IMG/VR virus record: IMGVR_UViG_3300042154_001770
Location: 1-22,095 of that record
Direction: 5' to 3' (one strand)
Source: a virus
Length of the DNA: 22,095 nt
The first letter of the stretch is position 1, and each line of letters starts with the position of its first letter. The notes beneath the pieces are model-generated. The model was not told where the DNA came from. It worked only from the letters and a program-made list of their open reading frames with translations, and ran no database searches. Of this stretch, positions 11,284 through 15,098 are shown one piece after another. The position numbers were made by a program, and so were the translations under genes.

Positions 11284-12828
11284 ATGGCACAAATTCAAAA
11301 AGGCACCACCTACACCACCGGCGACCAGGTCACCGCAGCCAACTTAAACAACCTGGCCGACGCTGCTATTCTGTTGGCGGGCGCCATCACCGATCAGACC
11401 GCAAAGACCGTACCACTCGCCGCAGATACGATCCTGCTCCACAGCGCCGCGGATACCGCACTTCGCAAATCGACGCTCACGCAGGTGTTCGCAAATGCCA
11501 CGGGAATTCCGATCAGCACCGGAATTTCGGGTCTTGGCACAGGCATTGCAACTTTCTTAGCCACGCCATCCTCGGCCAATCTCGCCTCTGCGCTCACCGA
11601 CGAAACGGGCAGCGGCGCAAACGTGTTCGCCACGTCTCCAACCCTCGTCACGCCGAACTTGGGAACTCCGTCAGCGGTGGTTCTAACGAACGCTAGTGGC
11701 ACGGCCTCAATCAACATAAACGGCACCGTGGGAGCGACGACGCCGAGCACGGGCAGTTTTACGACGTTAAACACTTCTGGTACTATTGTATCAAAAATTT
11801 CTAGCGGCGTTTTAACCTACAAAGACAGCGTCAGTGCGTCTGTCGGTCTAGCTGAATTTTACCGAATAAATAACGGCTCAACTTTATCTGGTTTAATAGG
11901 CACAAGAGACCAAGTTTTTGGCGGAACCATCAACGATTTTGCAATTGATGGACGAGCTGGAAATTTAGTTTTAGGCTGTGGAGGAAGCATAGTTGCCACC
12001 TTCACCTCCACCGGTCTAAACTCCACGGCCATCGGAGCGACAACGCCGAGCACGGGCGCGTTTACGACGGTGGCGGCGAGCACCTCTGCATCGTTTAGCG
12101 GTGCTGGCCTGCCTTACGCCGCAAACAGCTTGATGCTGAGAAACAACGGCACAGGTGATTCCCAGCTTTGGGCACTTGGTCCGAACACTAGCACTAACGG
12201 GACGATGACGTTTGTTGTTGCTGATAGCGACGGATCGGCGACCAATACGTTTGCAGTGGGAAGTAACACCGGCCTCGCCGTGACCGGGGCGTTGGGGGCG
12301 ACAGGAAACGTGTATAGTGGCAACAATGGGTTTTCAATCGGCACCGGCACGACGGATGGCTTCTACGTCACTCCGCTCGGCACAATGCTTCAATCATTCA
12401 ATGCGGCTGTTGCGGACGGCCAGTATGTGCGGCGGCGTGGAAGTGACGGCGTTATCACATATTACTACCGCGATAACACAAATGTCGGATCGATTTCCGT
12501 CACGACAACCGCGACCGCATACAACACCAGTTCTGATTATCGACTCAAGGATATCATAGGCCCATTAGTCGCAAGCGGAGCGTTTATCGACGCTCTTAAG
12601 CCCAAGGTTGGAACGTGGAAAGCGGATGGCAGCAAGTTTGTTGGATTCCTTGCTCACGAGTTTGCCGAGGTTTCGCCTTCATCTGTGCAAGGTGAAAAGG
12701 ACGCCGTGGATGCCGAGGGCAATCCAAAGTATCAAGGTATGCAAGCCAGCTCCGCTGAAGTCATTGCCAACCTCGTTGCCGAACTCCAATCCGTCCGCGC
12801 CCGCCTCGCCGTTTTAGAATCCAAATAA
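11284..12828 (+). CDS. Tail fibre/spike protein 2 with S74 self-cleaving chaperone
   Basis: This encodes 514 residues. The N-terminus (YTTGDQVTAANLNNLADAA) looks like a fibre-attachment segment, and the middle is Gly/Ser/Thr-rich beta structure. The last ~99 residues match the Peptidase_S74 intramolecular chaperone: SSDYRLKD at 416-423 with the predicted Ser417/Lys422 pair, then GFLAHEFAEVSP, and a final coiled helix (VAELQSVRARLAVLES). In this family the chaperone trimerises, folds the fibre and cuts itself off just before the conserved Ser, so the mature fibre should be about 416 residues. It starts 11 bases after fibre 1, behind CACTCAC. An AT-rich segment (about 11760-12000) is flanked by near-identical repeats. 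The two fibres may act as a branched pair or as alternatives. Confidence 0.92.
   Translation: MAQIQKGTTYTTGDQVTAANLNNLADAAILLAGAITDQTAKTVPLAADTILLHSAADTALRKSTLTQVFANATGIPISTGISGLGTGIATFLATPSSANLASALTDETGSGANVFATSPTLVTPNLGTPSAVVLTNASGTASININGTVGATTPSTGSFTTLNTSGTIVSKISSGVLTYKDSVSASVGLAEFYRINNGSTLSGLIGTRDQVFGGTINDFAIDGRAGNLVLGCGGSIVATFTSTGLNSTAIGATTPSTGAFTTVAASTSASFSGAGLPYAANSLMLRNNGTGDSQLWALGPNTSTNGTMTFVVADSDGSATNTFAVGSNTGLAVTGALGATGNVYSGNNGFSIGTGTTDGFYVTPLGTMLQSFNAAVADGQYVRRRGSDGVITYYYRDNTNVGSISVTTTATAYNTSSDYRLKDIIGPLVASGAFIDALKPKVGTWKADGSKFVGFLAHEFAEVSPSSVQGEKDAVDAEGNPKYQGMQASSAEVIANLVAELQSVRARLAVLESK
11731..12070 (+). repeat. Near-identical repeats flanking an AT-rich block in fibre 2
   Basis: Bases 11731-11770 and 12034-12070 begin GGAGCGACGACGCCGAGCAC and GGAGCGACAACGCCGAGCAC respectively and continue in close similarity. 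Both encode GATTPSTG then [SA]FTT. They lie 303 bases (101 codons) apart, in frame. The segment between them has only 23 G+C of 60 at 11881-11940, far below its surroundings. The arrangement would allow in-frame gain, loss or swap of the block. Confidence 0.8.
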
Positions 12829-12829
12829 C

Positions 12830-12970
12830 ATGACCACTGAACAAGCACTCCAAAACCTCTACGCAGGCAGCCGTCTGGCTCCATTACCCGCCGATCAGCA
12901 CGATTTGCTACGCAAGTGCGCGGAAGCCATTGCGGAGGCGTTAAAGCCAAAGGAACCGAAGGTCGAGTAA
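12830..12970 (+). CDS. 46-residue small hypothetical protein
   Basis: This short ORF runs from ATG 12830 to TAA 12970. It encodes MTTEQALQNLYAGSRLAPLP followed by a helical, charged second half ending in KPKEPKVE. It sits one base after the fibre 2 stop and one base before the next ATG, filling the gap exactly. There is no membrane segment. By pattern it could be a small helical assembly factor, but there is no evidence for a specific role. Confidence 0.65.
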   Translation: MTTEQALQNLYAGSRLAPLPADQHDLLRKCAEAIAEALKPKEPKVE

Positions 12971-12971
12971 C

Positions 12972-13502
12972 ATGGCCGGAACCTCCGACACGAACTGGCG
13001 CAGCTACGTTGGGCCACAGGACAACGGGCTGAAGGTGGACGAGGCTGAGTGGCAAGCTCCACCTGATCCAGAGAACTGGGACGACTTGGTGAAGTGCTCG
13101 AACTGCACCGGGCTAACGATTAGCGGGCTGACGATTCCAGCCAGCCGCGAGGACTCGATTGATTGCGTGCGCGGCTCCAATTACACGGTGCAGAATTGCA
13201 CGGTTCATGGCAGCGTGACGGTGAAGGGCGCAATCAACGGACTGACGCTCTACGGCTGCGTCATCTCAGGCACGATTGAACTCGGGCAGTACGACAACTA
13301 CTGGAGCCGAGGCCGCGCTCCTACGCGCAGAGTTTCCTTGGAGAATTGCTGTTCGCCGGACGGCTCGCCCGTTCGCGTGAAACTTTGGGACGCGGAGATG
13401 CCGCGAATTGAAGGCACCGAGGTGAGCGTGACGCGAATCCCAAAGTGGGTATGGCTTCCTTATTTTCTGTTCCGCCGTTTGACGAATCCGAAGAAGGTAT
13501 AA
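12972..13502 (+). CDS. Mini right-handed beta-helix-like protein
   Basis: This encodes 176 residues. Residues about 40-100 show short hydrophobic strands separated by Asn/Gly turns (NCTGLTISGLTI, GSNYTVQNCTVHGSVTV, INGLTLYGCVISGTIEL), the look of three or four rungs of a pectate-lyase-type beta-helix. Six Cys are present. The C-terminus is hydrophobic and basic (WVWLPYFLFRRLTNPKK), possibly a membrane-touching helix. I see no catalytic Asp/Arg set, so I do not call it an enzyme. It sits between the fibre genes and the holin-like genes, so it could be a fibre accessory that binds surface glycans or part of the lysis cluster. The function is unknown. Confidence 0.7.
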   Translation: MAGTSDTNWRSYVGPQDNGLKVDEAEWQAPPDPENWDDLVKCSNCTGLTISGLTIPASREDSIDCVRGSNYTVQNCTVHGSVTVKGAINGLTLYGCVISGTIELGQYDNYWSRGRAPTRRVSLENCCSPDGSPVRVKLWDAEMPRIEGTEVSVTRIPKWVWLPYFLFRRLTNPKKV

Positions 13503-13505
13503 GCC

Positions 13506-13904
13506 ATGCTCGATCTTCTCACCAACGCACTCGGCGGCGGCGCACTCGGCGTCCTGCTCAGAATCGGCAACGGGTTTTTCGAGAACTTCAAGGCCGGGCA
13601 GGACCACAAGCGAAAGCTCGAAGAGGCAAAGGCAATGGCCGAGATCGCCAGCGACAAAGCAAAGTGGGATGCGTTCACCGCAAGCCAACAGGCGGCCACT
13701 CCTCCGGCCAACACTTCGGCATGGGCAGCAAATTTGATAACGCTGTTTCGCCCACTCATCACGCTGCTCCTCTTGGTTCTGGTGACGATTGTCTTCTTTC
13801 GCGTCACCGCACTTGAGCAGGCCGAGATGATCGACGAGATTCAGTTCTGCGCTTTCAACTGCATCGGGTGGTGGTTCGGAGATCGCATGAGCCGCAAAAA
13901 ATGA
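13506..13904 (+). CDS. Holin-like membrane protein (3TM/GTA-holin type)
   Basis: This encodes 132 residues. The N-terminus is amphipathic (LLTNALGGGALGVLLRIG). A charged helical part follows (about 30-60), then a strong membrane segment at about 77-98 preceded by FRP, and a C-terminal hydrophobic region ending WWFGDRMSRKK (122-132). An RP before the membrane helix plus a terminal W-F-G-D-R is a pattern I associate with 3TM holins of gene-transfer-agent and phage type. Holins form holes in the inner membrane and time lysis. AAGAAGG lies just upstream, one of the few plausible Shine-Dalgarno sites here. The stop overlaps the next ATG (ATGA). Holin is the best guess; another small membrane role is possible. 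Confidence 0.7.
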   Translation: MLDLLTNALGGGALGVLLRIGNGFFENFKAGQDHKRKLEEAKAMAEIASDKAKWDAFTASQQAATPPANTSAWAANLITLFRPLITLLLLVLVTIVFFRVTALEQAEMIDEIQFCAFNCIGWWFGDRMSRKK

Positions 13905-14227
13905 ACGAGCACAAAGACCTCATGGAAGTGGCCAAGCTCTGGAAAGAAACGGGCTGGCTGACTGCGGTCATCGGCGGCGCTGGCATGATTGCTCGCCTAC
14001 TGGCCAACCCGATCCAAGGGACGATCTGGGACAGCGTGCGGCGCGTCATCATGGCGGCCATCGTCTCGACGCTCGCTTGGGTTATCGTTGAGCAAATCGA
14101 AGTCAGCTCGCTCGTGAAGGCCGTAACCTACGGCGTCGCCGGGCTGCTCGCACCCGAGATCATCGACGGCATCACGACGCTGGCAAAAAAGTATTCCAAG
14201 AATCCGGGCAAGCTGCTCAAGAAATAA
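13901..14227 (+). CDS. Second holin-like membrane protein
   Basis: This is a 108-residue protein. The frame is open further upstream (an earlier ATG-like start at 13868), but ATG 13901, overlapping the previous stop as ATGA, gives the natural start MNEHKDLMEV. It has three hydrophobic stretches: about 19-36 (GWLTAVIGGAGMIARLLA), 47-66 (RRVIMAAIVSTLAWVIVEQI) and 71-91 (VKAVTYGVAGLLAPEIIDGI), followed by a basic tail (KKYSKNPGKLLKK). Size, topology and tail fit LydA-like or class I holins. With the preceding gene it may be a holin/antiholin pair. The stop shares a base with the next start (TAATG). Confidence 0.7.
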   Translation: MNEHKDLMEVAKLWKETGWLTAVIGGAGMIARLLANPIQGTIWDSVRRVIMAAIVSTLAWVIVEQIEVSSLVKAVTYGVAGLLAPEIIDGITTLAKKYSKNPGKLLKK

Positions 14228-14859
14228 TGAATCCGAAGCTGATCACCGCTGCGCTCGCCGCGACCGTCATCTGTTTCGCGGGCGTCGGAGTGGTCACGGT
14301 CAAATCGGTCTCGGAGCACATCGCGGCGAGCGACAAAGAATTTGCGATGACGAGCAACGTGCTCAGTCCGCTTTTCGACATTTACGGGCTGGCTATCGTG
14401 GACGGTCAGGCGAAGGCGAGCAAGGGACTCATCGACGCCAAAGAGTTTTGCGACTCGCTGGCGAAGCTCCAAGCCGAGGCGGAGCGATTGCTCGCGGAAT
14501 TTGGCAACCCGGCGGAACTCGTGGCGCAGCACAAGATCGTCGCAGCCTACCTCAAAAAAGCGCGTTCAGCCTGCGACGCCGGGCAAATTGAAACGCTGAA
14601 CTCGCCGGCCATGACTGCCGAGCTTTACGCGGTTGTTGAACCGATGACGGCGCTGATCAACAAGGCGCTGCACGAAGAGCTGACGATTTCGCGCACGCAC
14701 AAGGAGGCCGCAGACCGGGCGCTGATCACGTTTGAGCGGTTCGCCTCGGTGGCTGCGGGGCTGGGCATCGTCTTCGCCATCGCGCCGTGGATCCGTAAGC
14801 AGCCAAAAATTATTAAGAAAGGGATTAAGAAGTCCGCCTCCCGGCGATCTAATTTATGA
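14227..14859 (+). CDS. Membrane protein with chemoreceptor-like four-helix-bundle domain
   Basis: This encodes 210 residues. One membrane segment lies near the N-terminus (about 5-25) and another near the C-terminus (about 172-188), followed by a strongly basic tail (RKQPKIIKKGIKKSASRRS). By the positive-inside rule residues 26-171 face the periplasm. They are almost entirely helical, and the stretch LFDIYGLAIVDGQAKASKG (50-68) resembles the ligand-binding four-helix bundle of methyl-accepting chemotaxis receptors. No HAMP, kinase or receptor signalling domain follows, so it is a sensor shell without output. It is coupled to the two holin-like genes by TAATG and to the next gene by ATGA. A periplasmic regulator of lysis timing (comparable in idea to T4 RI) or a receptor-interfering protein are possible; both are inference. 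Confidence 0.7.
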   Translation: MNPKLITAALAATVICFAGVGVVTVKSVSEHIAASDKEFAMTSNVLSPLFDIYGLAIVDGQAKASKGLIDAKEFCDSLAKLQAEAERLLAEFGNPAELVAQHKIVAAYLKKARSACDAGQIETLNSPAMTAELYAVVEPMTALINKALHEELTISRTHKEAADRALITFERFASVAAGLGIVFAIAPWIRKQPKIIKKGIKKSASRRSNL

Positions 14860-15098
14860 ACCCTAGAGACCTTCCCTGTAACAGCCCGCGTCGCGATGTG
14901 AGCGGCGGCAAGAAATCTGTCGTGCGGGCCTGCGCCTACGGGAAATCCAAAGTGATTCGCTTTGGCGACGCCAACATGAGCATCAAGAAAAGCCAGCCAG
15001 CTCGGAAAGCATCCTACTGCGCCAGATCCGGCGGCATCAAGGGCACATCCAATAAACTGTCGGCCAACTACTGGAGCCGCAAAGCCTGGTCCTGCTAA
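14856..15098 (+). CDS. Small basic Cys-containing phage protein
   Basis: This encodes 80 residues: 18 Lys/Arg, only 3 acidic, 4 Cys (8, 26, 55, 80). The second half reads RFGDANMSIKK, PARKASYCARSGG, and ends SANYWSRKAWSC. This pattern recalls small conserved proteins seen in many environmental podovirus and cyanophage genomes, whose role I cannot name. It is coupled upstream by ATGA and downstream by TAATG. The charge and size suggest a nucleic-acid-associated or virion component; the Cys spacing does not match a standard zinc finger. Confidence 0.75.
   Translation: MNPRDLPCNSPRRDVSGGKKSVVRACAYGKSKVIRFGDANMSIKKSQPARKASYCARSGGIKGTSNKLSANYWSRKAWSC

Follow-up and report, generated by a model that had tools for sequence, protein, structure and literature searches.

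Organization of the locus

The window, that is, the whole 22,095-base virus record that was analysed and which may be a fragment, contains three overlapping membrane-protein genes: h1 (13506-13904), h2 (13901-14227) and S (14227-14859), the last of the three; these, like u and d described below, lie on the plus strand. The sequence-only reading had described S as translationally coupled to the upstream genes, and the junctions agree with this: h1 and h2 overlap as ATGA at 13901-13904, and TAATG at 14225-14229 joins h2 to S. A further ATGA, at 14856-14859, is shared by S and the ORF that follows it, d.

The h2 gene codes for a 108-aa holin-like protein, which co-occurs with S and matches holin PHROGs (phrog_6384, E 3.2e-5; phrog_785, E 2.4e-4); a comparison with Phage_holin_3_3 (PF16083) gave no match. 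The product of h1, a 132-aa membrane protein, matches phrog_6637 (E 3.5e-9), a PHROG of unknown function, and has no match in Pfam, PF11351 included. In many relatives the h1 slot is occupied by a GTA_holin_3TM protein (PF11351/phrog_3427) of nearly the same length, with PF11351 scores of 38.9-45.5 bits against a cut-off of 24.8 and an E-value of 4e-23 to phrog_3427. Because a genuine 3-TM holin fills the same slot, h1 is, from its position, a putative holin. Alignment of h1 with the 3TM holin that replaces it gave an hhalign E-value of 0.2; since the two proteins are not detectably homologous, their exchange looks like a replacement and not a divergence. Of the two holin-like genes described earlier beside S, only h2 matches holin families directly.

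Upstream of h1 lies u (12972-13502), which codes for a 176-aa beta-helix-like protein, identified by synteny and by a weak similarity to PF13229 that remains below the cut-off (E 0.012). It is found nearly always upstream of the holin slot and carries a hydrophobic/basic C-terminal segment (IPKWVWLPYFLFRRLTNPK). Downstream of S, d (14856-15098) produces an 80-aa Cys/Lys-rich protein that matches phrog_7595 (E 2e-11), of unknown function; it follows S in podovirus-like contexts and is conserved at 82-95% in several of them. At the other end of the window, just before the packaging genes, a gene at 77-688 matches the phage ferredoxin family phrog_3704 (E 2e-32). Scans of the proteins of the window and of 20 selected proteins of the long relatives G001 and G004 revealed no recognisable endolysin near this cassette.

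S is a real gene under purifying selection, as its median dN/dS is about 0.08 in divergent pairs. The 210-aa product was first described as two membrane helices enclosing a mostly helical region, and the Kyte-Doolittle profile agrees, with peaks at about residues 5-26 and 165-189 and about 138 helical residues between them. TM1 (14239-14304) is placed by hydropathy and alignment; TM2 (14719-14793), placed by the same two means, is the most constrained part of the protein (dN/dS 0.058). The periplasmic domain between them (14305-14718, about residues 27-164) is delimited by the AlphaFold2 helices and by the hhalign match with MCP ligand-binding domains. The AlphaFold2 model is all-helical (helices 3-65, 71-92, 96-117 and 127-184), a layout that suits a 4HB sensor; its block-mean pLDDT is about 67-91 for residues 41-150 but low where the protein lies in the membrane. 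The short basic tail (14794-14856, about 21 residues past TM2) is K/R-rich across the relatives but variable in sequence; as had been read from the sequence, it carries no HAMP or signalling domain (Pfam gave 0 matches), and the relatives are alike in this. From the charges, both ends of S would lie inside the cell (N-in/C-in) and the sensor domain outside.

Cys75 (14449-14451), in predicted helix 2, and Cys116 (14572-14574), at the end of predicted helix 3, are both invariant (alignment A5) and may form a disulfide, since the two predicted helices are antiparallel; such a bond would fit a periplasmic location. Cys16 in TM1 is also invariant in the alignment of relatives and is preceded by I or V, a context that does not read as a canonical lipobox. 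S was also compared with spanins. As a unimolecular spanin it was rejected: S does have a C-terminal TM, but Cys16 follows I or V and not G, A or S, and the hydrophobic stretch runs past the Cys. It was likewise rejected as the inner-membrane subunit (Rz) of a two-component spanin, which has a single N-terminal TM and a free periplasmic C-terminus, whereas S has a second TM at 165-189 and a basic, cytoplasm-type tail.

Relationship of S to chemoreceptor sensor domains

S resembles the four-helix sensor of chemoreceptors (MCPs), as the sequence-only reading had noticed. Two motifs, Y-[AG]-[VL]-x-[IV]-[VI]-D-x-x-x-K-x-x-x-G and L-Y-x-x-[IV]-[DE]-P, are common to S and to most plasmid MCP sensors in the alignment, which spans TM1 and TM2 of both. 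In S the first is YGLAIVDGQAKASKG (14383-14427, residues 53-67; combined alignment, with the invariant columns of the mixed alignment A4), the counterpart of Y-A-V-x-[IV]-[VI]-D-x-x-x-K-x-x-x-G in the plasmid MCPs; the second is LYAVVEP (14623-14643, residues 133-139; combined alignment), the counterpart of LYxx[IV]DP. Overall identity between S and the MCP domains is about 16-19%.

The MCP sensors were fetched from plasmids with a generic sequence of the class, which served only as bait, and with a second bait; 12 were collected and 11 used in the profile and hhalign comparisons, and all eight that were scanned with Pfam are 4HB_MCP_1 and TarH domains above the curated cut-offs. The hhalign comparison of the S domain with the 11 MCPs gave a probability of 93%, an E-value of 2.6e-7 and a score of 48, against scores of at most 19.6 in 60 column shuffles and of 17.5 for the reversed domain. 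This E-value is to be discounted, because the MCP set was picked after the resemblance had been seen; a correction for about 25,000 Pfam families leaves it near 0.006. An HMM built from the 11 bacterial sensor domains (4HB_MCP_1/TarH), with no phage sequence in it, was run over 6,070 distinct frames from the viral loci, and 77 of the 78 S frames outranked every other frame, the exception being a truncated fragment; the ranking is only partly independent of the way in which the MCP set was chosen. The E-values were 5.7e-10 for the best S, 3e-5 for the S of the window and 2.2 for the best non-S frame. On a further set of 9,447 frames, 61 were matched at E <=0.1 by the MCP profile and 61 by the S profile. 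The MCP-only profile and the hhalign controls thus give statistical support to the resemblance first noted by eye.

General searches were less informative. S has no sequence match in Pfam, PHROG or PDB, in scans with the single sequence or with the alignment. Six-frame searches with the curated models, 4HB_MCP_1 on the record of the window and TarH on nine records, found nothing, S missing the curated Pfam cut-offs, and an alignment started from chemoreceptors found no viral relatives. In Foldseek searches of the PDB, the first model of S placed the sensor domains of NarQ, Tar, Tsr and Vc1313 near the top, at a non-significant E-value of about 0.1; PcaY_PP and Tsr were among the fold matches. 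Against viral models, Foldseek gave no informative match. The second model gave less specific and again non-significant results, and since no match was significant and this model was the less specific one, Foldseek serves as weak support only.

It may be that the similarity reflects convergence of helical membrane-anchored bundles, as the empty Pfam, PHROG and PDB sequence searches and the choice of the MCP set after a visual match would allow. This is very unlikely, as the two separate motifs occur at matching positions and the margin is large both over shuffles and over all other frames, membrane proteins included. S is thus very probably related to the chemoreceptor 4HB sensor domain and appears, from the profile evidence, to be an output-less, stand-alone relative of it.

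Such a relationship, with the signalling domain absent as in a dominant-negative form, would suit an action on host chemotaxis, in which S would pair with host chemoreceptors through its 4HB domain and blunt their signalling during infection. The sequence-only reading had raised this as insertion into host receptor arrays. The idea has no support and is very unlikely: identity to the MCP domains is only about 16-19%, HAMP and signalling domains are lacking, the genetic linkage of S is to lysis genes, and GTDB species genomes contain no close cellular homologue.

The h2-S pair in related phages

Linkage to holins in related phages, on which the earlier proposal had been made to depend, is conserved without exception: S directly follows h2 in 207 of 207 loci. 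This figure is not a count of independent phages, because loci on one contig that was fetched by different searches were counted separately. All 82 distinct h2-S junction sequences keep the overlap, which is of 4 nt in 64 of them and of 1 nt in the other 18. In the only five loci with h2 but no S, the contig breaks off within h2.

When h1 and the 3TM holin were taken as starting points, 81 untruncated loci turned up that lack both h2 and S, and profile searches of slot-filled loci without the pair detected no diverged copies of either gene. In L271 and L267 an endolysin (phrog_315, E 7e-52, and phrog_894, E 2e-38, respectively) directly follows the 3TM holin, which anchors the h1/3TM slot as a lysis cassette. 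Elsewhere among the loci without the pair, one-TM proteins of 51-104 residues come after the 3TM holin, or a prohead-protease-like gene adjoins it directly; the name of this gene is our reading of the sequence, as PHROGs gave no match. Examples of the one-TM proteins are L257:3408-3722 (104 aa), L259:3719-3874 (51 aa) and L255:3411-3638 (75 aa), placed behind the 3TM holin or behind the 104-aa gene; none of these three has a PHROG match, and they are possible alternative lysis accessories.

Since h2 and S are present or absent together, and absent from 81 slot-filled loci, they form an all-or-none accessory pair of a 3-TM-holin lysis cassette. Absence of the pair from some such cassettes is as expected of a regulator, and S is, as an antiholin would be, encoded with a holin in a lysis cassette.

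The same pairing is compatible with the main rival reading, in which S is a structural accessory of h2 and not a sensor: a two-TM partner for insertion, oligomerisation or opening of h2, or a spanin-like envelope-disrupting factor, with the bundle as a rigid periplasmic scaffold. The all-or-none pairing, the conservation of TM2 above the rest of S and the other small one-TM proteins found after the 3TM holin, which indicate that the position may hold generic membrane accessories, all speak for it. However, the periplasmic motif residues shared with chemoreceptors are strongly conserved, beyond the need of a mere spacer, and for the spanin-like variant S has two TMs and no lipobox, unlike spanins. 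We regard this reading as rather unlikely.

The h2-S cassette is found in many freshwater phages. Relatives of S occur only in uncultivated viral contigs, and none was found in GenBank phages, plasmids or GTDB species genomes. The pair stands behind the 3-TM-holin slot in at least three phage backgrounds, being followed by a prohead-protease-like and capsid-like pair, by a podovirus-type structural gene with d, or by metallophosphatase/collagen-like genes; both h1 and the 3TM holin are found in each main downstream setting. The region 11284-15098 and its equivalents in L026, L058 and L113 comprise a fibre-like gene, u, h1 or the 3TM holin, h2 and S; in podovirus-like settings d is present as well. 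The u gene usually belongs to the same exchangeable block as the holin slot, h2 and S, and the u, h1, h2 and S proteins of the block have about 65-99% identity inside otherwise different phage genomes. The fibre-to-S block is suggestive of a mobile adsorption-plus-lysis module.

That this block usually starts with the fibre-like gene and u and ends with h2-S would also suit a protein for superinfection exclusion or envelope modification that travels with the tail fibre and lysis genes because it is adapted to the envelope of the host. Such a role is unlikely for S, which is tied to h2 without exception, yet h1 and the 3TM holin occur without it; moreover, co-translation with the lysis genes would be late for exclusion. 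Exclusion and taxis interference are the less likely readings of S.

The distances of h2 and S are correlated (r 0.68); the alleles nevertheless reassort, with pairs at an h2 distance of 0.02 and an S distance of 0.24, and the reverse. A strict co-evolution of h2 and S alleles was rejected on these grounds, and the reassortment argues against a tight allele-specific interface.

A proposed role in lysis timing

The best explanation, to which we assign a probability of roughly one half, is that S is a membrane-anchored, antiholin-like regulator of lysis timing, possibly ligand-gated and paired with h2. In the proposed mechanism, the highly conserved membrane helices of S would make contact with h2, or with the 3-TM holin, and S would restrain hole formation as an antiholin does; the state of the periplasmic bundle, set by a ligand, by envelope stress or by a superinfecting phage, would then shift TM2 and change the time of lysis. 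Bundles of this kind in chemoreceptors relay a small displacement of TM2 towards the cell interior. S has no HAMP domain to receive this movement, so that the likely receiver would be another membrane protein, for which the co-encoded holin is the obvious candidate. We infer in this way both the regulation of lysis and the sensing by S, together with the contact with a holin, its inhibitory sign and its gating by a ligand. A gating of lysis by S in response to a periplasmic ligand is plausible. The fuller proposal is more tentative: phages may have taken the sensor half of a chemoreceptor, cut off the signalling half and wired what was left to a holin, so that a periplasmic chemical or envelope signal would set the moment of lysis.

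Lysis timing that responds to the outside world has been documented mainly for T4-type lysis inhibition and recently for a Vibrio phage (PMC7182436). If the proposed role is true, a common freshwater cassette in which a chemoreceptor-type sensor is joined to a holin would offer a second route to lysis timing, one that chemicals can address, and standard methods exist for screening the ligands of this class of sensor. Should S sense nothing, an accessory pair of holin and S that different phages either carry whole or lack would still offer a clean natural system for the study of holin-accessory function. A search of the open-access literature with narrow terms found no phage-encoded lysis protein of the chemoreceptor type; as far as that search reached, S would be an accessory lysis regulator whose sensor domain has had no earlier link with lysis.

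Comparison with known systems

The 4HB_MCP_1/TarH domains, from plasmid MCPs of Azospirillum, Methylobacterium, Pseudomonas, Aeromonas and others, share with S two TMs around a periplasmic four-helix bundle, the motifs Y..xIVDxxxKxxxG and LYxx[IV][DE]P and a significant profile similarity. Of the parts of an MCP, S has the 4HB-type ligand-binding domain and the two flanking TMs (by hydropathy and by alignment with TM1 and TM2 of MCPs); unlike MCPs, it has no HAMP or signalling domain, is missed by the curated Pfam models, is encoded in a phage late operon and has only about 16-19% identity to them.

Among lysis proteins, PHROG and Pfam scans of S found no match to an i-spanin or to another known lysis protein; such a match would have spoken against the earlier proposal. 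GTA_holin_3TM (PF11351, phrog_3427), which in many relatives occupies the h1 slot two genes upstream of S, is a neighbour and not a relative of S. PF16083 is presumably the family of the phage P1 holin LydA, from which h2 would differ, having no match to it. The P1 system resembles the S cassette in combining more than one holin-like protein with an accessory regulator; it includes the holin LydA, the antiholin LydB and the further holins LydC and LydD (PMC9025707).

The T4 antiholin RI resembles S in its proposed role only, the control of a holin from the periplasmic side on a signal. The signal peptide of RI is cleavable and its periplasmic domain soluble (PMC8385771); S, by contrast, appears to be anchored in the membrane twice, and its bundle is of the chemoreceptor type. 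For the control of a holin from the periplasmic side, RI is the closest functional precedent, albeit as a processed, soluble protein.
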